From Mya arenaria (lineage: Eukaryota; Mollusca; Bivalvia; Myida; Myidae), in contig NC_069131.1 in assembly GCF_026914265.1 (NCBI RefSeq), positions 8,882,001-8,946,000 on the forward strand: 64,000 nucleotides of DNA, in the 5' to 3' direction. Below the pieces are notes generated by a model. The model saw only the letters and a program-made list of their open reading frames with translations. It had not been told where the DNA came from and did no database searches. This document shows, one piece after another, positions 12,146-63,055 of the stretch. Position numbers and translations under genes: made by a program. Within the stretch, counting starts at the first letter, position 1. Each line of letters starts with the position of its first letter.

Positions 12146-12199
12146 CTCTGTACTTTATACAACCCGATATCGGCGATGAGTGCGTTTAGTCCCACGAGG

Positions 12200-12375
12200 G
12201 TGAAAATGAAAATGACGAATGTGAAAATTGAGAATGAAAATTGAGAATGAAAATTGAGAATGAAAATCGAAAATGAAAATTGAGAATGAAAATTGAGAAT
12301 GAAAATTGAAAATGAAAATTGAAAATCATCAGAGAAAATGAAAATTGAAAATGAAAATTGAAAATCATCAGAGAA
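12200..12375. repeat. GAAAATTGAGAAT-type simple repeat
   Basis: Twelve-base units GAAAATTGAGAAT/GAAAATTGAAAAT repeat, with two ATCATCAGAGAAAA inserts. Copy B has the same array at 44150-44315 with a different number of units. Phe/Ser-rich frames on the minus strand are repeat artefacts. Confidence 0.9.
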
Positions 12376-12498
12376 AAAAAATGAGCGTCTTGGTATCAGA
12401 TACAAAAACAAAGTAATTTATTTCAAGTTTTATTTTTTATTTTGTGAAACAAGATAATTGTCACAATAAATCGAAAACTTTCTTCAACCACGTCAGGG

Positions 12499-12798
12499 TT
12501 AGCCGGCCAAGATTGCAAGATTTTCAAATCGGTGGAAGAAACATGACAAACAATAGTTTCTCATTCGCACTTTTGGTGGCGTTCCATTAGCCTTACAATC
12601 ATTACAGTACCACACATACTTAAAACAGTTTTGGCAGTAGCCAGCTGGAGGGAAAATGTTCAAAAGATCATGTCGTTGACAAGGTTCTAACGTAAAGACT
12701 CCAGCACAACACAATTGGCATTCCCAACAGAACCTTTTGAAATAATCATTGTATTGTAGTCCAGCAAACCCAACGATGTCAGTATATCGTTTTGCCAT
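12499..12798 (-). CDS. Small cysteine-rich putative zinc-binding protein
   Basis: A 99 aa protein starting MAKRYTDIVGF. It has a dense Cys pattern: CWECQLCC at about residues 24-31, then CQRHDLL, YCQNCFKYVWYCNDCK and YCLSCFFH. The spacing of CxxC pairs suggests two or three zinc sites, but no named domain matches. An AATAAA on the coding strand lies within about 80 bp after the stop. It is the first gene inside the left end of the element and is duplicated at 44442-44741 with a few amino acid changes, which suggests a real gene. Function unknown. Confidence 0.65.
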   Translation of the reverse strand: MAKRYTDIVGFAGLQYNDYFKRFCWECQLCCAGVFTLEPCQRHDLLNIFPPAGYCQNCFKYVWYCNDCKANGTPPKVRMRNYCLSCFFHRFENLAILAG

Positions 12799-13050
12799 AG
12801 TAAGTGAAGTGTGAATAGTACAGTCCCCGCTGTATTAATAGTTTGAAGTGCTCTAAAAAGCGTATACATTAGTTCTCGAACTTGCATTCAACAACTTTGC
12901 AAACCAATGTTAGAAATTTGAGCTAACTAGCGTATTGCGGCTGTCTACAGCATAGCTGTGTAAATCAGAACTGGTAGTGTTTGAGTGATTAACACAGTTC
13001 ACCTTTCTATGTAAATGAAATAAACAGAAAGCAAAAATACAAATAATTGT
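12799..13050. other. Intergenic spacer
   Basis: Non-coding spacer with a small palindrome around CTACAGCATAGCTGTGTA. It holds the upstream region of the Cys-rich gene and the 3' end of the RING gene. Confidence 0.4.
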
Positions 13051-13644
13051 TTATGATTTATTCATAAGATATTTTCCAACAATAGCCGATCTACAAATGT
13101 GACATTCGCTGCTGGTAATGGAGCATGACTGACAAGATAAATGTCCACATGGGATAAACACAATACACTTTTTGTTTGTAACACAACTTGTACAAATGTT
13201 TTTTTCGTCGATTTGTCGTTGCAACTCTGCTTCCCTGCTGAGAAGATTGCGCAAAAGGGATGTTAGTGGGTTTGTTTTACGCAAGATCTTGGATACCGAT
13301 CGGATTTTGGATAAAATGTCAATTTCTTTCTCCCTGCCACAACGTTCTGATATTTTGTTCAACTCAATTTTGTAGTTTTTGAAGTCACGTTTAATTTCTC
13401 TGGCTAGTGGTAAAACTCTATTTGTTTTGTCTTGCTCGCTCATCTTGCTAGGAGGTTTTTCTGAAGAAGCTATCTTATGAAGTGATTTTACACTTTTACG
13501 AATTAATGGCAAAAGTTTTCTTAAGACGCCAGATACGTGTTTGCTGTTATTTACTACGATAGTTTTCATGTACAACACCTGAGTTTCACTGTGTTCCATA
13601 CGATCTGCCAAATTGCTTATTAAGCTTAAAGTTGTGTTTGACAT
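13051..13644 (-). CDS. RING-finger protein 1 (putative E3 ubiquitin ligase)
   Basis: About 197 aa from the Met in MSNTTLSLISNLADRMEHSE. I prefer this start because the paralogue at 14866 begins at the equivalent MSDTTLSLISNLADR; a longer frame upstream has no counterpart. The N-terminal ~145 residues are helical and Lys-rich. The last ~49 residues are a RING-HC finger of the IAP type: CTSC, then PCGHLSCQSC and CHICRS. Such proteins transfer ubiquitin from an E2; viral ones often target host defence proteins. TGAATAAATC at the end places the stop inside the polyadenylation signal. It is divergent from the coiled-coil gene at 13873. Confidence 0.78.
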   Translation of the reverse strand: MSNTTLSLISNLADRMEHSETQVLYMKTIVVNNSKHVSGVLRKLLPLIRKSVKSLHKIASSEKPPSKMSEQDKTNRVLPLAREIKRDFKNYKIELNKISERCGREKEIDILSKIRSVSKILRKTNPLTSLLRNLLSREAELQRQIDEKNICTSCVTNKKCIVFIPCGHLSCQSCSITSSECHICRSAIVGKYLMNKS

Positions 13645-13815
13645 GTTTGATATCAACTGAATGAATGGATTAAATAATTGATGAATGAAACTCGAGTAAT
13701 AAGAGCTTGAAATTATAATGCAATGAAAACACTGATTCGTTTTGTTTTCAACAATGATCATCATAATCTCATTTCATTGGATAAACACTTGTGCATTATA
13801 AAAGTTTAATCGTAT

Positions 13816-13828
13816 GATATAAAAGCTC
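13816..13828 (+). promoter_or_regulatory. TATA box for the coiled-coil gene
   Basis: GATATAAAAGCTC lies about 45-55 bp before the ATG at 13873. Comparable TATA sequences precede several other genes of the element at similar spacing. Confidence 0.5.
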
Positions 13829-13872
13829 ATATTCTACATTATGGGTATTCCTTAGCTGCAATACGTAGAGAG

Positions 13873-14445
13873 ATGGCTAACGAATATAGATATAGCACAT
13901 CTATTCCCCAGTATGAGAACAAGACAAACACACTACTTCAGAAATATCTCAAGTACTGTTCGAAAAATGTACCAACTCATGTTCGTACAAGTTTGACAAA
14001 GGAACTCGAATACCTTGGACAATGTTCGAAAGTACAGACAATCAACAATATGAATATGGTCGTTATGGCACATAGAAGGCAGAAAATAACATTAGAAAGA
14101 GAAATCAAATTTCTAAAACAAGAAGGCCAGCATTCTTCTAAAGCGATTCGAAAAACACAGCATCTGCTTAGAGAGCACAAGCGACACATACGGAAACTAA
14201 AGGGAATTCTTCAACGAGTCACAAATGAAGTAGTCAAAAGCGATTTGAGCATCCCAGTTTGCAGAAGGGATTTGAACACCCCAGTTTGCAAGGAGGATTC
14301 GAACATCCCAGTTTGTAGAAGGGATTTGAGTTACCATTCCGATACTGATGATACTGGTGATAATGATGAGACACTGTCTGTGGCAATGAATTGGGGTGAC
14401 GAACTTTTTGACCAGCCACCGAACGAAGAAACCCCCAGCGTATAA
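13873..14445 (+). CDS. Coiled-coil protein with short peptide repeats
   Basis: 190 aa starting MANEYRYSTSIPQYENK. Residues ~60-120 are strongly helical and basic (LEREIKFLKQEGQHSS, LLREHKRHIRKLKGIL) and probably form a coiled coil. Residues ~125-152 hold three tandem copies of a peptide close to (S/N)IPVCRRDL. The tail is acidic (SDTDDTGDNDETL). AATAAA follows at about 14494. The gene sits between two RING paralogues, both on the other strand. No family recognised; duplicated at 45813-46385. Confidence 0.65.
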   Translation: MANEYRYSTSIPQYENKTNTLLQKYLKYCSKNVPTHVRTSLTKELEYLGQCSKVQTINNMNMVVMAHRRQKITLEREIKFLKQEGQHSSKAIRKTQHLLREHKRHIRKLKGILQRVTNEVVKSDLSIPVCRRDLNTPVCKEDSNIPVCRRDLSYHSDTDDTGDNDETLSVAMNWGDELFDQPPNEETPSV

Positions 14446-14865
14446 CTTTTGAAAAATGTTCTGTTTCAATGAAACGCAAATTATGTAACGATTTCAAAAT
14501 AAAACCTTTCATACCACTTATTTTTGCTTCTCGTTCTTTGATTATTATTTTGTCATACAAATTGTTGAATAACACATCGATAAATGGAAAATATCCGAAG
14601 ACTAAAATCACAGCCTTTGATTTGAAAATAAAATAAAATCTGAACATGAAGTTATGTATCAGCAACTAAACAAATTTTCCAATATACTTAAGTTACAGTT
14701 ATCATACGTTCCCAAATTGTTTATTTTGAAAACAATAACGTTTTACGAGATATTTTTCATCTACTAAAAACCAGTATCTCATTCTTCTTAAAGGGAGGTA
14801 ATAGCATTAATAACACAGTGAAGAAACAAAATTGAAAACAAGTACAGAGGAATATATTTTACAAT
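14446..14865. other. Intergenic spacer
   Basis: Contains the AATAAA of the preceding gene and otherwise AT-rich DNA. Minus-strand frames here are shadows of the coiled-coil gene. Confidence 0.4.
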
Positions 14866-15474
14866 TTATTCATAAATTTGATATTTTCCGATAACAACAG
14901 TTCGGCAAAAATAGCATTTACTAGTTTTGATTGAACATGCATGACAAGTCAAATGGCCACAAGGCGTAAACACAATACACTTTTTGTCCGTAACACAAAT
15001 TTGACAAATGTTTTTTTCATCGTTTTGTAGTTGCAACTCTTGTCGCGTTTCTTCTTTCATGCTGAGGTGATGCCAGAGAAGGTCTCCTAGTGTGGTGGTC
15101 TTTCGAAATATCTTGGATACTAATCGCATGTCAGCCAAAATGTTAACTTCTTTCTCCCTACCACAGCGCTGTGAAATGTTGTTCAAGTCTGTTTTTAAAT
15201 TTTTCAAGTCATTTTTTAGCTTTTGAACCTGTGACAATAGGTCTCCGGTCTTCTGTTTCGGTTTACACATCTTGTTTGGAGGTTTAATGGAAATCGCTGT
15301 ATTTTGCAATATTTTCACACATTTGTGAAGTAGTGAAAGAAATTTTCTTAGCACGTCCAAAGTGCGCTTGCTACTTCGCGTACTAATGAATATCTTTATT
15401 TGCTGCAAGTCAGATTCACAGTGTTTTACACGATCTGCCAAATTGCTAATTAAGCTTAACGTTGTATCTGACAT
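14866..15474 (-). CDS. RING-finger protein 2, paralogue of RING 1
   Basis: About 202 aa from MSDTTLSLISNLADRVKHCE. It is homologous over its full length to the protein at 13051-13644: same opening, the shared block RCGREKEVNIL, and the same C-terminal RING (CQICVTDKKC, then PCGHLTCHACSI and CYFCRTVVIGK). An extra METRQELQLQN-like segment precedes the RING. The stop is again overlapped by ATGAATAAAT, giving a tight polyadenylation signal. The pair arose by tandem duplication within the repeat. The copy in repeat B is broken. Confidence 0.78.
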   Translation of the reverse strand: MSDTTLSLISNLADRVKHCESDLQQIKIFISTRSSKRTLDVLRKFLSLLHKCVKILQNTAISIKPPNKMCKPKQKTGDLLSQVQKLKNDLKNLKTDLNNISQRCGREKEVNILADMRLVSKIFRKTTTLGDLLWHHLSMKEETRQELQLQNDEKNICQICVTDKKCIVFTPCGHLTCHACSIKTSKCYFCRTVVIGKYQIYE

Positions 15475-15889
15475 GTTTGACTTCAACTCAAGAATGAATA
15501 AATGACTGAGAAGTGAAGATTATAAGAGCTTGAAATTATAATGCAAAGGAAACATGAGTTTTTTCTTATGTTTGAAGATTTTGAAAAATATGAGATGAAA
15601 TTTAAAAATTGCTTTCACGTGAAAGTGAAGTGAGCTTTGCAGTTTGAAGCATTTCAAAAGACGAAAGTCTTCATGATGCTTAAATTATGTTTCACTCAAT
15701 CGTTGCATAACTATTGAAATTTCTGATATACAACTAATGCTTCTAATTTCAGTTTATGTTTTTATTCAAAATGTAAGCAGATAACAAAGTACAAACATGC
15801 ATAGTATTCATAACATTGCAAACATATCAATATACATAATTATACACAATTGTTTTCATGAAATCAAACACAAGCAAATGTTTACAATT
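15475..15889. other. Upstream region of RING 2
   Basis: Contains TATAAGAGCTTGAAATTATA at about 15520-15540, a sequence also found in front of RING 1, so the promoter was duplicated with the gene. No open frame is supported. Confidence 0.45.
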
Positions 15890-16960
15890 GTTATAATGTC
15901 AAACATTCAATGTGAAAAGTATTTTTGTTATGCAATGTGGTCACTCCCTGTTTTTCATCCAGACTTGTGACTGGCATTGGTCAGGTTACCCACGGCATCA
16001 GCGAGGTCGGAAAATGGTAACTCTGAGCCAGAAACCTATTTTCCTAGTGTCATACACTACGCAAAATCAGCACCCATTAGAGGCCTTCCAGGCGACCTTC
16101 TACAATTTGTTACACCTATAATGTAGAGTGCTGGACTACTCGGGTGTAACAAACGGGGTATTGCTGACTCGTTGTAGGCACAACGCCGAACTTATGATCT
16201 CAGATACATGAATGGCTATACTGAAGCAAGAATCGAGTGCTACAGCCGCATAGATCGATCAGTGAACGATTGGAAATATGCGATCAACTTCAAGTACCCA
16301 AAACCACAAGCTAGGCTCGAAAACTCGTAGACTTATTTCTCTTTTGATCTAAGAGAAGGCTACAGAGTTCACTTTCAAACACACCTCTTAAGCACAAAGA
16401 GGCATATTTGCTCGCTTTACTTGCAGGCAGGAAATGCTAACTTTAATCTCAGAAAGCATTTCCTTTTATGTATCGCAACTTCTGAGCAAAGAAGCGATTG
16501 AAGTTTGAATTTTGAATTTTGAAAAAAACTGAGGCAACGCTAAAGGCAGTTACTCGACAAGGCACACTTAGGAATAAGCATCCGATTGCTTGTGTTTTCC
16601 TCTCTCTTTGTAAAGACTGTGTGGAGTGTCGGACCACAGCGATACATCGAGGTTGCCACTCCCTATTTTTCATTGCCTGTAGCGCGACATGATGACCATG
16701 AGCGGTTCCTAGTATTGGTACTGTACATCACCTTACACCAATACTAAGCTGGTCTAACGACACCTCCATACTCATGGTAGCCTCTCAAATTTTACTTTTA
16801 CCAAAATGTTTTTGCGAAGTTGACAAAATCATTGCATTGCATCCAAGACCGTAGCATATTGAGCAATGAGAAACAAATCTCGTCGAAGCTATACTTCTAT
16901 GCTCATGCTACCAGACGCAAATAACAAATCACTTGCCAAAATCGCTTTTTGTATATGATC
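15890..16960. ncRNA. Hairpin-rich non-coding block (possible structured RNA or miRNA cluster)
   Basis: A 1.1 kb block less AT-rich than its neighbours, with no good frame but many perfect short inverted repeats. Examples are TTTGTTACACC 16106-16116 with 16143-16153 (11 bp); CGTTGT/ACAACG 16170-16185; TTCTCTT/AAGAGAA 16337-16357; CCTCTT/AAGAGG 16384-16402; AGGAAATGCT/AGCATTTCCT 16429-16464 (10 bp); TAGTATTGGT/ACCAATACTA 16710-16746. Loops of 4-26 nt would fit RNA stem-loops. The last hairpin is conserved at 19175-19211. No transcript evidence; strand unknown. Confidence 0.35.
16531..16800. repeat. Dispersed 265 bp module, copy 1 in repeat A
   Basis: From GGCAACGCTAAAGGCAGTTA to the CTCATGGTAGCCT block. 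A second copy lies at 18999-19262, on the other side of the AT-rich array. The TAGTATTGG...CCAATACTA hairpin is kept in both. Copies in repeat B are at about 48472-48740 and 52578-52840. Confidence 0.85.
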
Positions 16961-17444
16961 TAATGGCTATCACAGAGAATGATCGTATTCGTCAGGCGAT
17001 GTCAAAGTGATCGACAACATGAGCTGGCCAGACTCAAGAGCGAAAAACTATGAGGTATCGCGACATACGGTTCTCATGTTCAAACCAGAAGGTCAAAAAA
17101 CCTCTCAGATATTTTCTCTGTATCTCTGATGCACCAAGTTCATAGTGCGAGGAGAAATCTGAGAAGTTCAAACCCACTTTGGGCTCCCAGCAGACTAACA
17201 GCACTTCTGAGCTAAGAGCTTGCTACTGGAATGACGAATATTGAAAAATGTGGAGCTTATATACCCGATGGCCAAAATTAATGCGCATCGCATTATAATT
17301 GTGCATAAATGGTTAGGACTATTTTTTTTACCGTTTTTATTTATACGCTCATATGAAATAGTTCCAGAATTATCACTTGATTCCGCATTATTATTGTACA
17401 AATGGCTCGAGATTTTGAAATCTGTGAATGAAGTAGTTTTTCTA
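16961..17444. other. Non-coding spacer
   Basis: No supported gene. It leads from the hairpin-rich block into the AT-rich array. Confidence 0.4.
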
Positions 17445-18560
17445 TGAAGATTATGTGAAATTAGTTTCAGCAAAATATCATTTTTTTTCAAGTTTCATGG
17501 ACTTGGTGGAATTTGTGCATATGGCTTATGATTGTGAGATCTGTGAGATTTGCTGCAAATGTAGATTTGTTGAATTTGATCATTATGAAGATTTTATTTT
17601 TTTCATGAAATCTTGTGTGAACGCCAGCCTCAGAAAGATATCAATTTTTTCATGTTTCATGGACTTAGCTGCATGTTTTGTGCATATGGCTTATGATTGT
17701 GAGATTTGTAATTTTTTGAGAGATTTGCATGAGCCTATAATTTTTTCAACATTATGAAGATTTTATTTTTTTCATGAAATCTTGTGTGAACGCCAGTTTC
17801 ACTAAGATACCAATTTTTCATGTTTCATGGACTTAGCTGCATGTTTTGTGCATATGGCTTATGATTGTGAGATCTGTGAGATTTGCATGTGCCTATAATT
17901 TTTTGAAAGATTTGCATGAGCCTATAATTTTTTGGGTAAATGAAGCCTATAATTTTTTTTTGAAATCTTGAGATCCCGCGTTAATTTCTAGATTTTCAAC
18001 AATATGAAGATTTTATTTTTTTTCTCATGAAAACTGGTGTGAACGCTAGTTTCAGAGCACAAATGTTGAAGGTTTTGAAATCTGAGTGTTTGAGTGAGTT
18101 TTATGAAGCCTATAATTTTTGAAGAATGTAGCCTATAGTTCGATATTTGAAATCTTGAGTTCCAACGTTAATTTCTAGATTTTCAAAATATTCGAATGTT
18201 CAGACCATAGAATTGTCATTCAGAGTTCTTGTGATGTATGATTGTTGATATCATGAAGATTTTAACTTTTTCGTGAAATCTTGTGTGAACGCCAGTGTCA
18301 GTAAATTATCAATTTTTCAGGTTTCATGGACGTGGGTCCACATTATTGAAATTTGTCATTTTTTTGAAGGAGTTGCATGAGCCTATAATTTTGAATAAAT
18401 GGAGCCTATAATTTTTTTATGAAATCTTGAGATACCTCGTTAATTTCTAGATTATGAACATTATGAAGATTTGATTTTTTTTCATGAAGTATTGTGTGAA
18501 ATAAAGCCTATAGTTCGTTTTTTGAAATCTTGAGATCTCTCGTCAACTTCTAGATTTTCA
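17445..18560. repeat. AT-rich tandem array, short form
   Basis: Degenerate units of roughly 115-230 bp are built from the blocks CTTGTGTGAACGCCAGTTTC, TTTCATGGACTTG, TGTGCATATGGCTTATGATT, GAGCCTATAATTTTTT and ATTATGAAGATTTTATTTTT. The equivalent array in repeat B (49385-52110) has more than twice as many units. Isolated copies of the same blocks occur at about 32480-32760 in the unique region. Confidence 0.85.
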
Positions 18561-18998
18561 CAATTTTTCACAATTTTTCACAATTTTCGATGCATATTTT
18601 TTTGTTGAGAGCATGAAATTACAATTCAGAGTTGCATTATTTTTGTACATATGGCTTATGATCGTGAGATTTAACATGTTTGAAAATAAAAAAGAAGCTT
18701 TTTCATACAATCTCATGTTTGATTTTTAAATTTCAACACAGCAGAATTTGTGAATTTGCTGTTCATGTTTTGCATTATTTTTGTACATCTGAGTATTTTT
18801 TTGAAAAATGAAAAATGCTGCTGACAAAATGTTGAAATGTTGAATGTTTGTGTGATATGTGTATTTCGAGCCATTTTTTTTTGAAGTATAACGCCAGTGG
18901 CTGTTATCTTCAAGCATTAAAAGGGAAACCTAATTTTCATCGTAACCCTATTATGTGGTCCTAACCTAGTTTTATTTGTTCACAAATTTGAAAATAAA

Positions 18999-19262
18999 GG
19001 CAACGCCAAAGGCAGTTACTCGACAAGGCACACTTAGGAAGAAGCATCCGATTGCCTATATTTCCCCTCTCATTGTAAAGACTGTGTGGAGTGTCGGACC
19101 ACGGCAATACAAAGAGGTTGCCACTCCCTATTTTTCATTGCCTGTAGCGTGACATGGTGAACATGAGCGGTTCCTAGTATTGGCACTGTACACCACCTTA
19201 CACCAATACTAAGCTGGTCTAACGACACCTCCATACTCATGCTAGCCTTTAAATTACTTTTG
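18999..19262. repeat. Dispersed 265 bp module, copy 2 in repeat A
   Basis: Nearly the same sequence as 16531-16800, including the hairpin at 19175-19211 (9 bp stem). The stem is conserved while the loop has changed. Confidence 0.85.
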
Positions 19263-19398
19263 CCAAATGATCTTGCTGAACGAAAACATTGCCACATATC
19301 AATGTTCGGTCGTTCAAGAGGAATGTTTGTGATGAATGAAGTTTTGCACTTCGAAACCAAACTAAGAATGCAATGAGCCTAGTACATTTCACTTGTAT

Positions 19399-19815
19399 TT
19401 CACAACGCATCTACATTCTAACATTTTTTTTAAAAATTGCTTGATCTTGCAATTTTGATTTCAATTTTCATTCAAGCTGAACTTTATATATAGACATTGA
19501 CAAAACAACAGGTTCGCATCTTAAACCGCCGCATAAAGGACAGTGAGAAACGAATCTCGTCGACCCATGCTGGCACGAGCAAACAAATCATTTTGTCAAC
19601 AGCATTTCACAACGCATCTACATTCTAACATTTTTTTTTTAAAAAGTGCTTGATCTTGCAATATTGATTTCAATTTTCATTCAAGCTGAACTTTATAGAC
19701 ATTGACAAAACAACAGGCTTGCATCTTAAACCGCCGCATAAAGGACAGCGAGAAACGAATCTCGTCGACCCATGCTGGCACGAGCAAACAAATCATTTTG
19801 TCAACAGCATTTCAC
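19399..19815. repeat. Two tandem ~207 bp units with conserved hairpins
   Basis: The units start CACAACGCATCTACATTC at 19401 and 19608. Each ends in a GC-richer core: AACCGCCGCATAAAGGACAG, then GAGAAACGAATCTC and GTCGACCCATGCTGGCACGA. GAGA/TCTC and CTCGT/ACGAG can pair in alternative stems. A related GAGAAACAAATCTCGTCGA also occurs at about 16868. Confidence 0.75.
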
Positions 19816-20180
19816 AAAAATGAAACATTTTAAAATGCAGTGCAAATTTTGCTCTTGTGCACACTATCAAAATGTTTACCATTTTACTAAGTTATGTTCC
19901 AACCAATATCGTAATCAATATGACAAGACCAAAGCTTAATAAATTTATGAATTACAAGCAGCATTACTGCTAAAATTTTGTTCAATCACAAATGTTCCTC
20001 GGTTTCAGCCGTGACCAAGTCTGGCTGTTTCTCATAAAAAAAATATAGTGAAAAACCGTTTGACTGTGGTTTCATTGAAAAAAATCGACAGACCAAAATG
20101 TAACCAATTTTATGAAAAAAATGTGTTATCTTTCGTGAACAATACTTTGGATGGCCAAAAAAAATAACAACAGTACTCAC

Positions 20181-20203
20181 AATAGCAAACAAGACCCGCG
20201 TTA
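20181..20203 (-). other. Possible 23 bp micro-exon
   Basis: On the minus strand the acceptor CTTACCCCAG precedes a 23 bp stretch that ends at the consensus donor GTGAGT. It could be the last-but-one exon of the minus-strand transcript described at 22146-24345. Very small; treat as speculative. Confidence 0.25.
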
Positions 20204-20263
20204 CTGGGGTAAGCAAGACAGCACAAACATTAAAAGCAAACAGATAAATCAGTATTTCTCCAT

Positions 20264-20569
20264 TTAAATTTCATTTTCGAATGATTTACTGTATGATAAA
20301 TTTTCAATGTTCATGTAAAACACGAAATACAAGTGTTGGAGAATTACTGATAAACAAAAAGCAACGGTACAAAGCACATATAATACAAACAATATTTTAA
20401 AACGAACAAGTGTGGATAGGTATCTTTTTTCAAATAAACAATGACATTTCAAATGGATCGACGAATTCTGTCTGCTGTCTTCTGTCGGATCCCCTGTGTA
20501 TGGCATCTCATCTGAAAAAATGAAATGAAACGTGTAAAAGACGAAACATTCATACATACAATAGCACAT
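20264..20569 (-). CDS. Small putative membrane protein, possibly an exon
   Basis: 101 aa frame, or about 80 aa if translation starts at MPYTGDPTEDSRQN. A hydrophobic stretch FKILFVLYVLCTVAFCLSVI would span a membrane once, after a basic segment. TTTTTTCAG followed by ATGAG at 20511 is a strong acceptor, so this may be the 3' coding exon of a spliced minus-strand transcript rather than a stand-alone gene. No family recognised. The same frame occurs at 53849-54148. Confidence 0.4.
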   Translation of the reverse strand: MCYCMYECFVFYTFHFIFSDEMPYTGDPTEDSRQNSSIHLKCHCLFEKRYLSTLVRFKILFVLYVLCTVAFCLSVILQHLYFVFYMNIENLSYSKSFENEI

Positions 20570-20898
20570 TAATGTTTACTCTGGTAAATTTTGGTTTCAT
20601 TTATAACATTGGACTTGCAGTGAGTTGTAAATGCTTAGTCTTAAAACATATTAACCTTTATCTCAGTTTTGATTTACAAATGACAGAGCAGTACACTAAC
20701 AACGTGCTTAAAATTATGATTTTTTTGACAACTTTTCAATTTTTTCAAAATTTTTGACTTTGGATTTTCACCATAGCGCATTCGCGTTTTAGCTATATAC
20801 CTACCAAAGCGCATTTGCGTTTAAGCGATGTAGTTTTTTCACGCTGAGTACCCCCCTTATGAAACTTTTTTTTACATTGAATTTAGAACGATTTAGTT

Positions 20899-21098
20899 GA
20901 CTCACAAAATTAGGCACACAAAGTGACGATGTACAAGTATTTTGGGGTGACGAGCTTTTTGGTTCGCTCGCCCGACCAAACAAAAACACTTTTAGTATAT
21001 ATATAAGTCTTTTTGTTTGGCCGGGCGAGGTAACCAAAAAGCTCGTCACCCTAAATTATTTGTACATCGTCACCTGGTTTGCTTAAATTTGTGAGTCG
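20899..21098. repeat. ~200 bp palindrome with TATATATA centre (A1); candidate replication origin
   Basis: The left arm runs TGACTCACAAAATTAGGCAC, then GTGACGAGCTTTTTGGTT, then CGCTCGCCCG. It is mirrored by the right arm CGGGCGAGGTAACC, AAAAAGCTCGTCACCC and GTGAGTCG. The centre is TATATATATAAG at about 20994. Just upstream are two related elements, AGCGCATTCGCGTTTTAGC and AGCGCATTTGCGTTTAAGC (20775-20826). Long palindromes with an AT-rich centre beside repeated protein-binding sites are how herpesvirus origins are built; that role is inference. Confidence 0.85.
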
Positions 21099-21104
21099 AT
21101 TTGT

Positions 21105-21480
21105 CATAAAGAGAGTAAAATGTATGATAAGATGCTTAGCATCTTCAAATAATTTGACATTCATCTTTTGGTTTGACAATAAAATGAGTAAAATTTATGA
21201 TAAATTGTTTAGCATCTGTAAATAATTTGACATTCATCTTTTGGTTTAACAAATAATAGAGTGAAATGTATGACAAATGCTAAATATCATGAATCGATTC
21301 AAGACATGACATTTAGCATTTGGTTTGACAAATAATAAAGTGAAATGTATGATAAACTGCTTAGCATCTGTAAATAATTTGACGTTCATCTTTTGGTTTG
21401 ACAAATAATAGAGTGAAATGTTTGATAAATGCTCAGTATCATGAATCGCTTTGATATTCATCAATTTGTTTTACTAATGA
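21105..21480. repeat. Iterated ~75-80 bp repeats beside palindrome A1
   Basis: Four to five units are built from TTTGACATTCATCTTTTGGT, TTTGACAAATAATAGAGTGA and AATGTATGACAAATGCTAAA. The same units flank the other palindromes. They look like iterons. Confidence 0.8.
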
Positions 21481-21641
21481 ACAAATAATGTCATATGGTT
21501 TGACAAAAAAGTAGATTGAAATACCATTCATTTGTGATGTTTTACACTTGTGAAATGCAGATCGAATGCATTATTTTTGTGCATATTTAATATGTAACGC
21601 ATACTTAATATCATTACAAAACTTGAAACCTACAGCAATTT

Positions 21642-22025: not shown

Positions 22026-22145
22026 TTTATATTCTACATTATTGTTGTATGTACCATATAACACTCGATGAACAAGTTCAAAAACTTTTTATCATATACA
22101 ACTGGATAAACAAGTTAAAAAATAAATAAGCACTTTGTATTTTAC

Positions 22146-24853: not shown

Positions 24854-24869
24854 TTGTTTTACTTTATTT

Positions 24870-26177: not shown

Positions 26178-26220
26178 AATTGTTTGAGAATGTGTATGAC
26201 AAGTAACAAATTTTCAGCCC

Positions 26221-53848: not shown

Positions 53849-54148
53849 TCATTTTCGAAATGATTTACTGTATGATAAATTTTCAATGTTCATGTAAAAC
53901 ACGAAATACAAGTGTTGGAGAATTACTGATAAACAAAAAGCAACGGTACAAAGCACATATAATACAAACAATATTTTAAAACGAACAAGTGTGGATAGGT
54001 ATCTTTTTTCAAATAAACAATGACATTTCAAATGGATCGACGAATTCTGTCTGCTGTCTTCTGTCGGATCCCCTGTGTATGGCATCTCATCTGAAAAAAT
54101 GAAATGAAACGTGTAAAAGACGAAACATTCATACATACAATAGCACAT
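53849..54148 (-). CDS. Small putative membrane protein or exon (copy B)
   Basis: Counterpart of 20264-20569. The same hydrophobic segment and the same TTTTTTCAG/ATGAG acceptor are present. The C-terminal few residues differ. Confidence 0.4.
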   Translation of the reverse strand: MCYCMYECFVFYTFHFIFSDEMPYTGDPTEDSRQNSSIHLKCHCLFEKRYLSTLVRFKILFVLYVLCTVAFCLSVILQHLYFVFYMNIENLSYSKSFRK

Positions 54149-54476
54149 TAATGTTTACTCTGGTAAATTTTGGTTTCATTTATAACATTGGACTTGCAGT
54201 GAGTTGTAAATGCTTAGTCTTAAAACATATTAACCTTTATCTCAGTTTTGATTTACAAATGACAGAGCAGTACACTAACAACGTGCTTAAAATTATGATT
54301 TTTTTGACAACTTTTCAATTTTTTCAAAATTTTTGACTTTGGATTTTCACCATAGCGCATTCGCGTTTTAGCTATATACCTACCAAAGCGCATTTGCGTT
54401 TAAGCGATGTAGTTTTTTCACGCTGAGTACCCCCCTTATGAAACTTTTTTTTACATTGAATTTAGAACGATTTAGT

Positions 54477-54677
54477 TGACTCACAAAATTAGGCACACAA
54501 AGTGACGATGTACAAGTATTTTGGGGTGACGAGCTTTTTGGTTCGCTCGCCCGACCAAACAAAAACACTTTTAGTATATATATAAGTCTTTTTGTTTGGC
54601 CGGGCGAGGTAACCAAAAAGCTCGTCACCCTAAATTATTTGTACATCGTCACCTGGTTTGCTTAAATTTGTGAGTCG
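54477..54677. repeat. Palindrome B1, candidate replication origin
   Basis: Counterpart of palindrome A1, with the same TATATATATAAG centre, AGCGCAT elements upstream and iterated units to about 55060 downstream. Confidence 0.85.
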
Positions 54678-55221
54678 ATTTGTCATAAAGAGAGTAAAAT
54701 GTATGATAAGATGCTTAGCATCTTCAAATAATTTGACATTCATCTTTTGGTTTGACAAATAAAATGAGTAAAATTTATGATAAATTGTTTAGCATCTGTA
54801 AATAATTTGACATTCATCTTTTGGTTTAACAAATAATAGAGTGAAATGTATGACAAATGCTAAATATCATGAATCGATTCAAGACATGACATTTAGCATT
54901 TGGTTTGACAAATAATAAAGTGAAATGTATGATAAACTGCTTAGCATCTGTAAATAATTTGACGTTCATCTTTTGGTTTGACAAATAATAGAGTGAAATG
55001 TTTGATAAATGCTCAGTATCATGAATCGCTTTGATATTCATCAATTTGTTTTACTAATGAACAAATAATGTCATATGGTTTGACAAAAAAGTAGATTGAA
55101 ATACCATTCATTTGTGATGTTTTACACTTGTGAAATGCAGATCGAATGCATTATTTTTGTGCATATTTAATATGTAACGCATACTTAATATCATTACAAA
55201 ACTTGAAACCTACAGCAATTT

Positions 55222-55605
55222 ATGATCTGTACAATGGAGAGACTTAACCGCAAAATTAAAAGAATTGCCATTCTTGAGGCTAGACTTGCTGTACTCAAAA
55301 CAGAGTTACAGTCAGAACTGGAGCAGCTGAACAATTCCAATGACATGACAATGAACTATGGTTCAAAAACATTATCACCTGTACAAACTGAGGTTGAAGA
55401 CTGGGGTGACTGCGTAAGGACTTCAGAAATCATCAGCGAGGAGGACTGGGAATCTGAAGCAAACAGGCAGCCCTTCACTCTTGGTGGGACATTCTGCAAA
55501 ACGAGAAAATCTACAAACTGGGAAAACAGATGCCCTGTTTGTTTCTCAAAAAACTGTGGACATAAAGTGAACAGATGTTTGTTCAGAGAAGCCGCAACTC
55601 AGTGA
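55222..55605 (+). CDS. Coiled-coil protein with C-terminal zinc knuckle (copy B)
   Basis: 127 aa, the same protein as 21642-22025. Confidence 0.6.
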   Translation: MICTMERLNRKIKRIAILEARLAVLKTELQSELEQLNNSNDMTMNYGSKTLSPVQTEVEDWGDCVRTSEIISEEDWESEANRQPFTLGGTFCKTRKSTNWENRCPVCFSKNCGHKVNRCLFREAATQ

Positions 55606-55725
55606 TTTATATTCTACATTATTGTTGTATGTACCATATAACACTCGATGAACAAGTTCAAAAACTTTTTATCATATACAACTGGATAAACAAGTTAAAA
55701 AATAAATAAGCACTTTGTATTTTAC

Positions 55726-57925
55726 CTCGTGTTGTTTTACTTCAATGTCCCGAAACCATTTAAACGAACAACTTCCACTGAGGTCAGACCAGCCATACAG
55801 AGCTGAAAAAACAAAACATTTCTGTTGAAAAATGAAAACATCAATGAGTGAGTAAAATAAGAACAATACTTGTTCAATTTGTTTGCCACCAAAAACATGA
55901 ATCTTAAATGATCTTGTTTTCCCTGCCAGATGATATACAATAAAACTTAACAATATAAGCTTCAACTCACTAATTTTCATTTACTAAATATGAACACTGG
56001 CTAATTAACTTCTATTAAGTCTTTGACCACCAAAGAATATTTGCAGTGAGTTGTAAATGCTTAGTCTCAAAACATATAAACCATTCTTTCAGTTTTCATT
56101 TACAAATAATAGAGCAGAACACTAACAATGTGCTTAAAATTATGATTTATTTGACAACTTTTCATTTTTTTCAAAATTTTTGACTTTGGATTTTCACCAT
56201 AGCGCATTCGTTTTTTAGCTATATACTTACCAAAGCGCATTTGCGTTTAAGCGATGTAGTTTTTTCACACTGAGTACCCCCCTTATGAAACTTTTTTTTA
56301 CATTGAATTTAGAACGATTTAGTTGACTCACAAAATTAGGCACACAAAGTGACGATGTACAAGTATTTTGGGGTGACGAGCTTTTTGGTTCGCTCGCCCG
56401 GCCAAACTAAAACACTTTTAGTATATATATAAGTCTTTTTGTTTGGCCGGGCGAGGTAACCAAAAAGCTCGTCACCCTAAATGATTTGTACATTGTCACC
56501 TGGTTTGCTTAAATTTGTGAGTCGATTTGTCATAAAAAGAGTAAAATGTATGATAAATGCTTAGCATCTTCAAATAATTTGACATTCATCTTTTGGTTTG
56601 ACAAATAATATAGTGAAATGTATGACACATGCTAAATATCATGAATGGATTTGACACTTAGCATTTGGTTTGACAACTGAAAGAGTGAAATGTATGACAA
56701 ATGCTAAAAGTCATGAATCTGAAACATAGCTGTAGTTTTGCTACCATTATGTGAAATAAGTACAAAGAGCAAAATCAAATCATGATGGTTCAGTGTTTCA
56801 GTATATATTAAAGTACCAAGATGAGTTAACTTTACTGTTCATTGTAACTTTGAGATTTGTTTCTGATGAAATTTGGTGAAATTACTTACTTGTTATTGAC
56901 AGAGCAGAACACACTGCATATTGGGTGAGCTTCAGGTTATATAGGCTAGGTTACTCCTCACAACTCTGAAACAAAACATTTTATCAACAAAACTGCACAT
57001 ATTGCTTGTTAGTTTTTTACATTTTTCATTCCATTAAAAGCATGGCTAAGTGCACATTTCATCCACATCAACAATGTTGAAATAATCCTGAAAACAAAAT
57101 ACTTCCTACATACAAACAGAAACAGAAAAACTGTTCACATGCAGAAGGTATTATGTTCCCAACATTTCTTATCATTCACAACAGGAACAAAATTATGCAT
57201 TTATGGCATTGGTAGATATCAAACACAAACTGAAAATTTATCTAATAGCAGTTCAATGTAATAAATCAAACACAGTGTCTGTTATTAGATAAATTATCAG
57301 TTTATAAAAATTATTCCAAGCATATTTCCAAACAGACTAAGCACTGAGATTATGATATGACAGTTCAATTCATGGAATTAATTTTCAGCGATTTTACTTA
57401 CTTGTAAATGTACTTTCTTGGGTACTGCCTTCAACCATTTTGATCACCAGCTTTCTGACACACAGGACGACTGCATCTGAACTGCCGTCTCTGGTTTAAA
57501 AAAAATAATTTTCAACATATTTTTCAAACAAAGAAATAGAAGAAGATATTTATCAATCTTGCATGATTTGTCATTTCTTATTTCTGTCAGTTTGGTCCCT
57601 AAACAAAGTTAAAATCATTCAAAATATGACATAAACAAGACAAGAGATATGAATTAACACCGCTTACTATGTTTTTCAACATATCTAGCCGAGAATTAAA
57701 GTTTCTAAAATCGGCTTCGAGAATGTTCGAAACATTCTAAAACGAGCTGGGAGCAATTTCTTTTGACATAAGTTTTTACGTAATTCAATGCACACATCGA
57801 CAAAACATGTTGGTAATATGATACATCATATATTTAGACACAATTTCTCATAAAACTTTTAAACATTCATGTCATACTTACCGCAGGAAAGCTGGAAATA
57901 CGACCTTCACAATTTATTTTTCAAG
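55726..57925 (-). ncRNA. Predicted multi-exon minus-strand transcript (copy B)
   Basis: The donors and acceptors described for 22146-24345 are all present here, with the same spacing to within a few bases. Confidence 0.45.
56324..56523. repeat. Palindrome B2
   Basis: Counterpart of palindrome A2. Confidence 0.85.
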
Positions 57926-57985
57926 ATGGCCGACCAGCGCACAGCGAGAACTCTGCAATATGACGTCATACATATCACGTCATAT
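57924..57985 (-). promoter_or_regulatory. CRE/YY1-type promoter (copy B)
   Basis: The same AAGATGGCCG, TGACGTCA and TCACGTCA elements as at 24341-24400. Confidence 0.45.
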
Positions 57986-58219
57986 CATTCCATGAATTGC
58001 ATTATTTATTTATTTTTGAACTTTTACGAAAATAAAGAAAATACACTCATTAAAAATAATTTAAAATTATCTTAATCATGTATTATGTATCGTTTTATGA
58101 AATTAAACAATAGGAAAAAAAAAGTTTGTTCATTTTCAGAAAAACGAAATCGAAAGTAGAAATATTTTCTGAAATTGGAAATGTTTAAAACCTCGTAAAA
58201 TCATTTATATCTCTTGTAT

Positions 58220-58435
58220 ATGCATAAACCCGGCTTGATTCAATCGCGAACACATTATAGAAACTATAACTACCAAGGTCGTACCTTCAAACACAGAAAA
58301 TATCCCAAATTTTACACACAAAGAGTATTGTTTACATGGTTCAACCGTATCCAAGTGAATACGACAGACAACACTTTCCCTTATAATAATCAGCTCAGTA
58401 TAGCTTGTACCGAAAATCGTAACATTATTCTGTGA
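58220..58435 (+). CDS. Small ORF, basic, unrecognised (copy B)
   Basis: The same frame as 24638-24853. No domain. Confidence 0.2.
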   Translation: MHKPGLIQSRTHYRNYNYQGRTFKHRKYPKFYTQRVLFTWFNRIQVNTTDNTFPYNNQLSIACTENRNIIL

Positions 58436-58713
58436 TTGTTTTACTTTATTTCATGTTTTATTTTGCTTAAGTATCGTACTTTGTAGCATTTTACGATACA
58501 TTCTGTGTATCTTTGAGGAGTTATGCATAGCGATTTGCACATATATATATGACTATATGACCATTACTCGTTTGATAACTATGAGCAAGCATAGTTGTTC
58601 TTGAAGCTTAAGTGATTCCAACTAGATTACTATAGATAAACACAATAAAATACGAACAGTTCATACATTTTATTTTGTTACTAATCATTGTCTGTTCATC
58701 ACTCAATTTATTG

Positions 58714-59157
58714 TTAAAACTGTTTTGGCACAAACTGTCTCCCACGCCTGGCGAAGAACTGGCGAAGTGCTTCGTGATTCTCATTTTTCTCACTGTTGTC
58801 GCTGGTGCTGAGATCTTCAACACGCTTGTAACAGCACATTTTGTCAACACTCGACAAGTCTTCTTGCAGCAAACACATCAAACAGGGGTACAGTTCAGGG
58901 CACTGATGGCTTGGGGCTCTCTGTTCTGCTTTCTGTTCAGCCTCTCCGTTTTTGAAACAAATCAAACACGGATATAGTTTCGGACACGTGTGGATTTCAA
59001 TTGCCATATTGATGTTTGCATTCAATTGCACACTGTCCATGTTTTTCTGTTTTGCATCAGACCTTCTGAGCAACTTCTTCAAACACGTTTTGATGATTTT
59101 CTTGATTCCCATAATTTGTATATATACTAGATCAGTAGGTTTTGACATGTATGACAT
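58714..59157 (-). CDS. Zinc-binding protein with two CPxLYPCLxC motifs
   Basis: 147 aa, apparently whole in this copy. A basic N-terminus (MGIKKIIKTCLKKLLRRSDA) is followed by two matching motifs about 32 residues apart: CPKLYPCLICFKNGE and CPELYPCLMCLLQED. Each offers three cysteines; together they could bind zinc, or mediate a repeat-type interaction. The tail ends QFFARRGRQFVPKQF. The start could be MSYM or the Met of MGIKK. No family recognised. The copy A version is broken. Confidence 0.55.
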   Translation of the reverse strand: MSYMSKPTDLVYIQIMGIKKIIKTCLKKLLRRSDAKQKNMDSVQLNANINMAIEIHTCPKLYPCLICFKNGEAEQKAEQRAPSHQCPELYPCLMCLLQEDLSSVDKMCCYKRVEDLSTSDNSEKNENHEALRQFFARRGRQFVPKQF

Positions 59158-59424
59158 GAGAAGAAAAGATAAGTTTATATATGAACTATATTCGTTCCAC
59201 TCATTGCATTATTTTAAGCCATGGACCATGCAATCTACAATGCTAGGTACAGTGCTTGCTACTATGTTACTATGCTTCTAGTTTTCAATCGAGATAAACA
59301 AACAATCAAATTGCATTTCAACGCATTTATTCAAAGTTAAAACATCAAAACAATTGTTTGAACCTTTTCATTCGGAAAGCACTTAATGAAGTATCATCAT
59401 GTTTGAGCGGATTGAAAACTAATG

Positions 59425-59775
59425 TCAATTCTTGTTTTCGCTCACAAAAATACTTGGTTCAATTTCGTCAATTTTTACTTCCTCGTCTACGGTCTCAATG
59501 TCTTCAAAATTATCACTATCATAACAGTAACCGTCACAAACGCAGCAATTTCTCATATAACAAACTGCCCCGTCTGGGTTGTCATCTTGCATGGATTCGA
59601 TTTCGCTCGATTTTTGTTCTTCAGCATCTCGCAAATAATCTTCTGCCATCTCCATCATTTTTTCATATTCATTGATATCATTCATGGGTTGCTGAGAACA
59701 AGATTCGCTTTTTTGCTCGTTTTCACTGGTGTTCTCACAAGGCGTTGTTTGCTGTGTCGATGCTTGACTGGACAT
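59425..59775 (-). CDS. Acidic small protein with MAEDYLRDA motif (copy B)
   Basis: 116 aa, identical as far as I can see to 25827-26177. Confidence 0.6.
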   Translation of the reverse strand: MSSQASTQQTTPCENTSENEQKSESCSQQPMNDINEYEKMMEMAEDYLRDAEEQKSSEIESMQDDNPDGAVCYMRNCCVCDGYCYDSDNFEDIETVDEEVKIDEIEPSIFVSENKN

Positions 59776-59910
59776 AATTGTTTGAGAATGTGTATGACAA
59801 GTAACAAATTTTCAGCCCTTATAATAAGAATAAAATAATTCACTAGTAAATCGCATTCCATGATATAAATCGAAAATAAAACTGACATTGAACTCGCTCA
59901 CAATAGAAAT

Positions 59911-60369
59911 ATGACGGACATAAGCAACCTTAATTTACAAATTACCGGCTTCGTAGCGAGACTATGTATGGGTGATAACAAGCACGAGTCTACGTTCAAA
60001 GAAATCGTCTCGATACTTGACAATATCGAAAAAACATTTCTGCAAAACAAACTGGAAACGACCGAGTATCGCAAGAAATGTGGCGCACTACAGCAAAAGG
60101 TGTTCAGGTTGATCAGAGAGAACGATCGGTATAAGCAAACTCATGTGCACAACTCGAATACGGACGATAGTCAACTATTGCAGGACGAAGTTACACGCTT
60201 GACATTGAATCTGTCACAGCTGACTGCGGAAAACAATCAGCTTAAGCAAAATAACACGGCATTGGAAGACGAAGTTTTGCGCTTGAAATCTCAAACAGAC
60301 AACCTGCAATCCTTAGACGAAGCTGCCTGTATGGAACTATTCAACGAAAACACTCAAGATTTTTCATGA
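59911..60369 (+). CDS. Coiled-coil / leucine-zipper-like protein (copy B)
   Basis: 152 aa, the same protein as 26313-26771. One silent base difference was noticed. Confidence 0.65.
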   Translation: MTDISNLNLQITGFVARLCMGDNKHESTFKEIVSILDNIEKTFLQNKLETTEYRKKCGALQQKVFRLIRENDRYKQTHVHNSNTDDSQLLQDEVTRLTLNLSQLTAENNQLKQNNTALEDEVLRLKSQTDNLQSLDEAACMELFNENTQDFS

Positions 60370-60447
60370 ATTACTTTACTTCTGCCACTTACAAGTGAAT
60401 GTTACGAAGTTCAATAAAAAGCAATTTCAAAGCATTCGTTTTTTATG

Positions 60448-60822
60448 TTAATATTTTGTTATCCTAAGTCTTAGAAACGCAAATCTCAGTACGTTTTGCT
60501 TAAACTGTTCTCTTGCGCTTTGCTTGATTCTGGCCAGATAATCTTTTCCTTCTGAGTTACCCAATCTTTTGTAGTAACGTTTAATGTTTCTTCTATTCAT
60601 TTTTCGTGCCGGGTGGTTTATCCAACAAGCGGGACAAAAGCCGTTGTATTTATCAAAACAGCTTGGACACGCGGAATGTTCGAATGCACATTGTTTCATA
60701 ACGAGCAAGCGATAGTCAATGTTACTGTAGCCACCGCACCAATGACAAGCTCTGAAACGTTTTCCGAGTCTCTTATCATACGAAATACATTTTGAGTTTT
60801 TTTTACCGTTGTTGTGAGCCAT
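60448..60822 (-). CDS. RING-like zinc protein, paralogue 1 (copy B)
   Basis: 124 aa, the same protein as 26850-27224. Confidence 0.62.
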   Translation of the reverse strand: MAHNNGKKNSKCISYDKRLGKRFRACHWCGGYSNIDYRLLVMKQCAFEHSACPSCFDKYNGFCPACWINHPARKMNRRNIKRYYKRLGNSEGKDYLARIKQSAREQFKQNVLRFAFLRLRITKY

Positions 60823-61118
60823 ACTTTATTTAAAAGGTTCAAAAATATTTCACTAATATAGTGTCAAGTCAATTTCATTCAGTTTATGTAATTCAAATGT
60901 TTTGACAACAGTAACATGGCAAGTCTTAGCCGTTGGTGACACAATAAACTATTGTCTATATTTGCTGCGTTTACCACATTTACGAAAACACAAGACAAAG
61001 AATATTTCATTTTTTCATGTTTATTTTACAATTGAATCGTTATCTACAAAAACTTGAAACATCATAACACACTAAATGTCTCCAAAGTCCTGATACTCAG
61101 AGTCCCCAGGTTCATTGT

Positions 61119-61661
61119 TCATAAGTATGGTTTTATCGTTTCCCACATATAGCCTATGTGCTTCAACAGAAAATCGTTTAGAATCTCAGGTTCAGCATAA
61201 TCGTTTGAACTGTGTCTCAGTGCTGTCCTCGCTTCTTCCGTCTCACAATACTTGATCTCTCTGTACATTTCAACGCACCTCCTGATCTGGTCTGCCTCAT
61301 ATTTTGACTCCTGAATATTGTATATTTGTTCAAGTATTTTCGCAACTTTATCATGATCCAAAGGGGAAGCCGGCGAAGAATTTTCAAGATCATCGCTAAA
61401 ATTCCCATCCTCGATATCGTCATCATCTGAAAGGACAACAGCTGTAGCTTCATCTTTTCCTTCCCATGCCTTGAACCTCTTCCTTATCGGGCTAGCAGGT
61501 GGAGTAAGAACGTCTGCTTTTACTTTTACTGCGCTGAATTCTTTCTCATCCATGCTCACATCCATACAAGACTCTGCCGCATCTCGCAAATAGTCTTCTG
61601 CCATTGCTTGTAGTTTTTCGTCTTCAGTTGAGTAGTGCTGAGGAGATGATTTGCTTGACAT
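61119..61661 (-). CDS. Acidic protein with MAEDYLRDA motif and PPASP segment (copy B)
   Basis: About 180 aa from MSSKSSPQHY, the same protein as 27521-28063. Confidence 0.6.
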   Translation of the reverse strand: MSSKSSPQHYSTEDEKLQAMAEDYLRDAAESCMDVSMDEKEFSAVKVKADVLTPPASPIRKRFKAWEGKDEATAVVLSDDDDIEDGNFSDDLENSSPASPLDHDKVAKILEQIYNIQESKYEADQIRRCVEMYREIKYCETEEARTALRHSSNDYAEPEILNDFLLKHIGYMWETIKPYL

Positions 61662-61805
61662 GTTGTAGATTGTAGATTGTTTGTAACCAGTGCACAATTT
61701 GGAGACCTTATAATAGCAAAAAAATAATTCATCGATATTACTTTCATATTGGTTTTATGTTCATTTATTTCAAATAGAAGCACATTGTAGCTTTTTGCAT
61801 AAATA

Positions 61806-62348
61806 TCAAACAAGATCCATACAGTCATTGTCCTTGTCAAACATACCAACTCTCATCGATTCGGTTTGCTGGGGGGAGGTATTGCTGTATTCTATTTTCT
61901 GTCTTTTTACAATGTTATCCATCTCACCATTTTCCACTTTTCTTTTCATTCCCGCATTGGAACTGGAATCGTTTAAATCCATCTGCGGTTTGAACATTTC
62001 ATAATAATTCATGAACATTTCCTTATCCAACATATCAACACTCATCGATTCGGTTTGTTGCGGTAAGGTATTGCTGTTGTCTGATTTCTGTGTTTTTACG
62101 GTGTTAGCCAGCTCATCCATCTCACAGTTCATGGCATTGGAATCATTCAAATCCATCTTCTGTCTGTACAATTTACAGTCGTCGCACTGGCAGTTATCGA
62201 TACAGTCATAATAATTCAATCTGAAAAGGATACAGTCATAATAATTCAATCTGAAAAGGATACAGTCATAATAATTCAATCTGAAAAACTTACAGTCGTC
62301 ACACTGGCAGTTGTTTGTCATGATCTCTTTGCAGTTTGGTTTTGCCAT
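61806..62348 (-). CDS. Repeat-built Cys-rich protein (copy B)
   Basis: About 180 aa. As 28208-28720 but with three copies of the ten-residue FRLNYYDCIL unit instead of two, so it is ten residues longer and still in frame. Confidence 0.55.
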   Translation of the reverse strand: MAKPNCKEIMTNNCQCDDCKFFRLNYYDCILFRLNYYDCILFRLNYYDCIDNCQCDDCKLYRQKMDLNDSNAMNCEMDELANTVKTQKSDNSNTLPQQTESMSVDMLDKEMFMNYYEMFKPQMDLNDSSSNAGMKRKVENGEMDNIVKRQKIEYSNTSPQQTESMRVGMFDKDNDCMDLV

Positions 62349-62430
62349 GATCTCTTTGCAGTTTGGCTTTGCAGTCTTTTGCAATGTTTTGCAGTCTTTT
62401 GCTTTTATACCAATTAGAGCTTTCTTTGCA

Positions 62431-62844
62431 TTACAAAAAGGCGAACATCAACACGTCACTTTTGAACTTTTCCCTTGTGCTTTTCTTAATGGTGGCGAGG
62501 TAATCATGCCTCATCTCTCTCAATAACCAGTCGTTAGTTTCTATTTTACCCAATTTCTTGTAGTATCGTTTCCTTTCCTTAATGTGTGCTAACGCAACTG
62601 GATGGTTCAACCAACAAGCAGGACAAGAGCCATTGTATTTATCGAAACAGCTTGGACACGCGGAATGTTCGAACACACAGTTTTTCATAACGAGTAGGAG
62701 ATAGTCAATGTTACTGTAACCACCACACCACTCACAACATCGAAAACGTTTTCCGAATCTCTTATCATACGAATAGTTTGACGTGTTTAACATGTTTGAC
62801 ATGTTTGACATGTTTGGATCTGTATCGGCTGCATCGGCTGTCAT
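62431..62844 (-). CDS. RING-like zinc protein, paralogue 2 (copy B)
   Basis: 137 aa from MTADAADTDPNMSNMSNMLN. The C-terminal ~110 residues are homologous to the gene at 60448/26850: CCEWCGGYSN, CVFEHSACPSC and CPACW zinc ligands, then a basic helix. I prefer this Met because the frame upstream of it runs through simple repeats and the G-tract region. The start region differs in copy A. Confidence 0.58.
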   Translation of the reverse strand: MTADAADTDPNMSNMSNMLNTSNYSYDKRFGKRFRCCEWCGGYSNIDYLLLVMKNCVFEHSACPSCFDKYNGSCPACWLNHPVALAHIKERKRYYKKLGKIETNDWLLREMRHDYLATIKKSTREKFKSDVLMFAFL

Positions 62845-62924
62845 ATTGTTTGTTTGTGTGTTTGTGTGTTTGTATGTGTGCATGAGTTCTTTGTAGCCAC
62901 CACAAATAATGGAATACAGAAAAC

Positions 62925-62973
62925 GGGGGTGAAAATAAGGGGGGGGGATTTTCAACAAGGGGGGGGGGGGGGC
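62925..62973. promoter_or_regulatory. G-tract / A-T / G-tract segment near the repeat end (copy B)
   Basis: Counterpart of 29280-29335, with a longer last G run (12). It lies about 80 bp inside the right end of the element. Confidence 0.35.
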
Positions 62974-63055
62974 CTTTTCTATCAGCCTATTTCCCCAAGT
63001 CCATTCCATTTCCATTTTCATTTTTCAAACATCAAAACAAAACTTCACAGTTTGC

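Follow-up and report, generated by a model that had tools for sequence, protein, structure and literature searches.

The stretch of DNA analysed here, referred to as the window, comprises 64,000 nucleotides of the Mya arenaria genome (contig NC_069131.1, positions 8,882,001 to 8,946,000; C10:8882001-8946000 in the genome searches) and contains a DNA-virus-like element built around two huge direct repeats. These repeats, R1 (12158..29411, + strand) and R2 (44087..63055, + strand), enclose a unique region, U (29412..44086, + strand), and are bordered by host-type DNA beyond their outer ends. A sequence-only reading of the window had described two nearly identical repeats in the same orientation, and this is borne out by self-BLAST, which pairs 12153-17886 with 44082-49814 and 17463-29411 with 51019-63055 on the same strand; the repeat coordinates given at that time were right to one or two bases.

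Repeats, ends and flanks of the window element

The two repeats differ at 81 of 16,400 aligned bases (0.49%) and by 39 insertions or deletions, when the left 13-bp minisatellite and a variable-number tandem repeat (17463-17960 versus 49376-51643) are left out of the comparison. The differences are distributed unevenly, with 48 of the 81 located in window kilobases 12, 18 and 19. Homology between the repeats is limited on the left by TACAACCCGATATCGG (12158 and 44087) and on the right by CAGTTTGC (29411 and 63055), and these ends are common to other genomic copies. An exact CTTTAT target-site duplication pairs the left end of R1 (12153..12158, its last T being the first base common to R copies) with the right end of R2 (63056..63061) across R1-U-R2, a match with a chance probability of 0.8% at the slop allowed; no flanking duplication was found around R1 alone or around R2 alone.

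This duplication, together with flanks (12.2 kb and 0.9 kb) that have no DNA in common with R or U at E 1e-3, agrees with the earlier statement that host DNA starts at the exact outer ends of the repeats. The flanks look host-like, containing a fibrinogen-C piece at 2842-3108, a signal-peptide-like first exon recognised by eye at 63451, and an open reading frame (ORF) at 5779-6618 without a Pfam match, which we take to resemble the end of a long interspersed element (LINE) reverse transcriptase. CpG content did not separate the element from the host. A 91-bp satellite array (9410-12141) is separated from R1 by 16 bp, and the 41-bp array of U from R2 by 2 bp; kinship between these two minisatellites was considered and rejected, as none was detected beyond chance.

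U is broken by a placeholder of exactly 100 N (33672..33771), which adjoins a duplicated palindromic repeat, and because of this gap the sizes of U and of the whole element have not been measured. The 14.7 kb and roughly 51 kb originally assigned to them therefore do not stand, and other copies of U are longer: 20.0 kb as assembled in a copy on contig C12 (L049), which holds about 4 kb, including an N gap of its own, between the left-hand repeat and the sequence matching window 33772 onwards, and 58.6 kb in a copy on C9. Past these repeats, the DNA of sister copies runs into further ORFs, including ones of 290, 366 and 483 amino acids (aa), and among the ten that were scanned one OTU protease was recognised (3.8e-5, above cut-off). 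N gaps are also present in three of the six U stretches fetched from sister copies, showing how easily such elements are shortened in assemblies, and in the window copy part of U would be missing, whether deleted or lost at the assembly gap.

The gap within U and the low divergence of the repeats, which could be allelic, would both be expected of an assembly artefact in which one R is an allelic duplicate joined over the N gap. Such an artefact is scarcely credible, however, since the target-site duplication spans the outer ends, the R-U and U-R junctions recur at other loci, and the host flanks differ.

Genes and non-coding repeats

The family B DNA polymerase reported earlier in U is present on the + strand (35786..39632, its outer limits estimated from neighbouring open pieces) in a broken form, in which four domain-bearing pieces in changing frames match PF03104 (1.6e-10) and PF00136 (4.2e-10), and PF03175 only at 0.024. 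The best PDB match of the exonuclease piece is herpesvirus UL30 (2.2e-6). A protein database search with a polymerase piece returned no match; the pieces cannot recover full-length relatives there. In addition, single-sequence structure models were too poor for searching, with a pLDDT of 33.5 for the polymerase piece and 43.2 for P0009, a protein described below.

Two inhibitor of apoptosis (IAP) genes are located on the minus strand of U. The first (29472..30401), an open frame of 309 aa with two BIR domains (4.8e-33) and a RING domain, is retained in full in five of eight copies examined, and its best named relative comes from the scallop Mizuhopecten, which would be a weak pointer to a mollusc host, given that IAP genes can be captured. 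The second (41753..42720), identified by profile match, combines a RING domain with a BIR domain split by a short likely intron (GT...AG), the splice being placed by eye. Next to the first IAP, a minus-strand gene (30558..31486) encodes a protein that combines a circovirus-Rep-like domain with a C-terminus for which no relatives are known; its frame is broken in the window and forms a single 303-aa frame in seven of eight copies examined. The Rep-like match is weak (PF02407 at 5.9e-4, below cut-off; PDB Rep at 7.4e-4), and among the motifs with catalytic roles in circovirus Rep, the tyrosine of the YC motif is replaced by histidine and the PH preceding LQG has no counterpart in the alignment. 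P0009, a 293-aa open version of this protein, 99% identical to it, occurs in a public 2438-bp contig.

U additionally carries two protein kinase genes whose products are 39% identical, one with a broken frame (34197..34995, minus strand, by profile match) and one open over 262 aa (42873..43661, + strand). DLE or DMG takes the place of the usual DFG, a motif with a known role in kinases, in 42873-43661 and 34318-34995, and both kinases are possibly atypical or inactive, judging from these residues. Two paralogous RING proteins are encoded on the minus strand of R, one of 237 aa (13051..13764; R2 copy at 44991-45704) and one at 14866..15474 (R2 copy at 46861-47415, 184 aa). Searches with Rfam at gathering thresholds and for tRNAs gave no match.

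R and U have two dispersed repeat families in common, which are missing from the flanks. Sequence comparison identified a dispersed repeat composed of a roughly 200-bp palindrome and tandem units of 73 bp at 20615..21489 (+ strand), absent from the flanks, with further copies of the palindromic repeat at 22461-23177, 31580-32411 (minus strand), 32861-33671 (minus strand), 35073-35732, 54194-55069 and 56041-56757; the one copy that was folded gave a z of -16.4. These palindromes may act as replication origins, read by an origin-binding-like helicase known here from a weak match, and could alternatively be fold-back elements. The right end of U is formed by the 41-bp minisatellite (43792..44084), the last unit of which also stands before R in five other copies. 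Paired G tracts lie 83-116 bp from the right end of R (29299..29328 in R1, 62939-62972 in R2); they are the only G/C runs of at least 7 in the window besides 111-124, and may be analogous to herpesvirus pac1 sites. R also contains a duplicated segment, 89% identical between 16515-16815 and 18984-19276.

Genome-wide copies and their ends

The genome searched comprises 1.216 Gb in 18 contigs, and all counts from it are lower bounds wherever only part of the candidates was scored. A U-left probe identified 22 copies at 95-100%, in addition to three fragments of a diverged copy on C3, while a polymerase probe found seven copies, one of them partial, and a U-right probe found 12 copies and a 68% fragment on C5. 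R right ends were present at no fewer than 39 places (best 40 of 176 candidates scored), so that the arrangement in the window is not unique, its R ends recurring at dozens of other places. Among the matches listed, U-left is immediately preceded by an R right end in 21 of its 22 copies, and the 38 other right ends listed all stop between probe bases 339 and 357, R itself ending at 340.

Twenty right ends were fetched from R-right hits without an adjoining U-left hit (at least 55 matches; best 40 of 187 candidates). CAGTTTGC is present in every one of the 20, and their homology to R1 stops at 29411-29415. Within 7-kb stretches upstream, the left end was found in 14 of these copies and was not found in six (L010, L012, L015, L017, L025 and L028). 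The end of U, with its 41-bp minisatellite, precedes R in five of the 14, as in the window, and the remaining nine are solo R copies of 15.3-21.9 kb with other DNA on both sides. Exact target-site duplications of 6-7 bp flank five of the nine solo copies (CAAATAT, GAAGGGT, TTAACAT, TCGTTT and GAGAAT); in a control of mismatched flank pairings, 1 of 72 reached 5 bp or more. Eight copies lie only 0-0.86% apart over U-left, which points to a recent spread.

The excess of R right ends over the 22 U-left and seven polymerase copies is also what would be expected if R were an independent transposon of 15-22 kb and R-U-R a composite, with a herpesvirus segment caught between two R insertions in the manner of an insertion sequence-flanked composite transposon. 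The duplications at solo R copies fit this explanation as well, as does a junction on C9 (L012) at which R is joined head-to-tail to R. It is nevertheless unlikely, considering that R and U share the repeat families that the flanks lack and both contain RING genes, that the point at which U adjoins R is identical to the base among the copies compared, and that no recognised transposase is encoded in R; solo copies made by recombination would, moreover, produce the same pattern.

Further R and U copies form an array on C9 at 55.75-55.90 Mb. Together with the R-R junction, it recalls another proposal of the sequence-only reading, in which a circular genome had been inserted as more than a single unit; on this model, extended to concatemeric viral genomes, R would be a mere overlap. 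While conceivable for arrays such as that on C9, this proposal does not extend to the ends of R, which are true termini because the same ends recur at independent sites. A random overlap predicts limits of R that are specific to each site, whereas the limits are identical in every copy tested, which largely refutes the overlap model and makes it highly improbable.

Two further loci have unusual arrangements. At C12:59299383-59438269 (L023, L055 and L021), the motif TTACTCT flanks one R on its left and another R on its right. A single insertion between these flanks, 139 kb apart, was considered and dropped, as the DNA after the middle R is host-like and has a 92% copy elsewhere on C12; this copy (C12:59495555-59496323) starts at the R end and represents an empty-site-like paralogue. 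The locus has probably been rearranged or duplicated. At C3:89277877-89322117, two U right ends with polymerase lie back to back in opposite orientation, with diverged U-left pieces (74-85%) between them.

Probable herpesvirus affiliation and comparison with known systems

Four matches to the herpesvirus packaging terminase (PF02499, 4.9e-17) occur in the genome, against none in 14 control genomes. Three of the four sit 32.5-35.2 kb from a U-left of the family, inside U, and the terminase frame is open over 713 aa in three sister copies; in L056, the one scanned, both the DNA_pack_N and DNA_pack_C domains were recognised (1.3e-18, and 7.2e-14 for DNA_pack_N), and a protein kinase adjoins. The fourth match, L059 (C5:74319908-74326325), has a 446-aa frame and a kinase near the 68% U-end match and is a diverged relative belonging to a second lineage. 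The terminase that characterises Herpesvirales is thereby found in sister copies, outside the window stretch, and together with the target-site duplications it strengthens the original description of a DNA-virus-like element with huge direct repeats.

IAPs, kinases and a family B polymerase also occur in other groups of large DNA viruses, such as the endogenous nimaviruses of crustaceans, which have BIR-RING genes with introns and have been called giant transposable elements (PMC10871703, PMC7016691). An origin from such a group is very remote, given the herpesvirus terminase in three sister copies and the scallop origin of the best named relative of the first IAP. Nimavirus insertions are, in addition, described in telomeric or other microsatellites or in 28S rDNA, one virus being reported without an obvious target-site duplication (PMC10871703, PMC7016691).

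Recurrent precise ends, 6-7 bp duplications at about half of the testable sites, near-identical dispersed copies, solo R and the terminase in three sister copies form the observed basis on which the window is very probably read as one copy of an endogenous herpesvirus-like family, characterised by long direct terminal repeats, precise insertion, multiplication in the germ line and frequent reduction to solo R. Several findings weigh against this reading. Four of the nine solo copies have no target-site duplication, and the U-left copy at C5:75294361 has no R right end among the matches listed. For the polymerase palm piece, Pol delta is the best match among solved structures (7.1e-7; herpesvirus 0.02), and a match to the herpesvirus origin-binding protein in another of the ten sister-copy ORFs stays below cut-off (0.0029), with no PDB match. 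No transposase or integrase was found in the scanned ORFs of the window and of sister copies. No terminase match was seen in the window or near 19 of the 22 U-left copies, and therefore most copies are incomplete; as the C9 copy with the long U has no match to the polymerase probe, no single complete copy has been traced end to end.

A complete element would have the form R-U-R, with a U that carries herpesvirus genes for replication and packaging alongside host-like ones (IAPs, kinases, RING and OTU), and a direct R of 15-22 kb at each end. A recombinase or transposase would join both outer R ends to staggered cuts, and the family would have expanded in the germ line in recent times. Where the two R copies recombine, U would be lost and a solo R left behind, as for the long terminal repeats (LTRs) of retroviruses, and head-to-tail arrays may arise through exchange between R copies or through concatemer insertion. 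The chances are about even that a lineage of Herpesvirales has turned into a self-spreading, LTR-like germline element, which inserts by its R ends with a 6-7 bp duplication, employs an enzyme of its own or a captured one, and gives rise to solo repeats of 15-22 kb. In that case, a large double-stranded DNA virus would have evolved to colonise genomes as retroviruses do, with no piggyBac partner.

Herpesviruses are rarely endogenous; the cases described include an integrated lancelet genome, a telomere-ended sturgeon virus (PMC12031113) and piggyBac fusions in fish (PMC10175614). A multicopy herpesvirus-related family with retrovirus-like ends would have a lifestyle seldom seen in large DNA viruses; in a mollusc, it would allow the past of invertebrate herpesviruses to be dated and offer a natural setting in which to study the precise insertion of such a virus. 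Six probes found no relatives in IMG/VR, and among the papers listed in searches on nimaviruses, giant transposons, the repeats of alloherpesviruses and herpesviruses that are endogenous or infect molluscs, no title or abstract described such a family.

The layout itself has precedents, contrary to the initial impression that no described family possesses it. A strain of ictalurid herpesvirus 1 has direct terminal repeats of 18,580 bp around a unique region of 97,333 bp in a 134-kb genome (PMC6460021), and terminal direct repeats, reported in five of six evaluated alloherpesvirus genomes, reach 22 kb in CyHV3 (PMC3230846). The R-U-R layout with long direct repeats is therefore shared with Alloherpesviridae, which are free viruses of fish, whereas the present family is dispersed in a genome. 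With Malacoherpesviridae and the lancelet BelcheriHV-1, the family has in common BIR, RING, PolB and terminase, as well as integration in the case of the lancelet virus (PMC5552708, PMC12373286, PMC2994540); among herpesviruses, a confident BIR domain is reported in the account cited from Malacoherpesviridae only (PMC5552708), and two BIR-RING genes are present here. The malacoherpesvirus layout, however, is one of inverted repeats, TRL-UL-IRL-X-IRS-US-TRS (PMC11092209), whereas the end repeats here are direct, and BelcheriHV-1 is described as one integrated genome, in a text that does not contain the term 'direct repeat'.

Teratorn, a fusion of herpesvirus and piggyBac in medaka, likewise shows an endogenous herpesvirus as a giant mobile element with target-site duplications, but ends in inverted sequences of 18 bp, uses TTAA sites and encodes a piggyBac transposase (PMC10175614), in contrast to the long direct repeats of the present family and its 6-7 bp duplications, which differ in sequence, in which a transposase was sought only in the scanned ORFs and not found there. 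Acipenserid herpesvirus 3 of lake sturgeon is similar in being a germline herpesvirus at several sites with head-to-tail copies, and differs in ending in telomere-like TTAGGG arrays (PMC12031113); no tandem TTAGGG occurs in the window. Mavericks and Polintons, which have a protein-primed PolB (DNA_pol_B_2), an integrase and inverted ends, are set apart by the PF00136/PF03104-type polymerase of the present family, the direct ends and the absence of an integrase from the scanned ORFs. From LTR retrotransposons and endogenous retroviruses the family differs in its repeats of 15-22 kb with genes of their own and in the absence of reverse transcriptase and integrase domains from about 137 R1 and U ORF pieces scanned with Pfam, while it resembles them in its long direct terminal repeats, short target-site duplications and solo-repeat forms.

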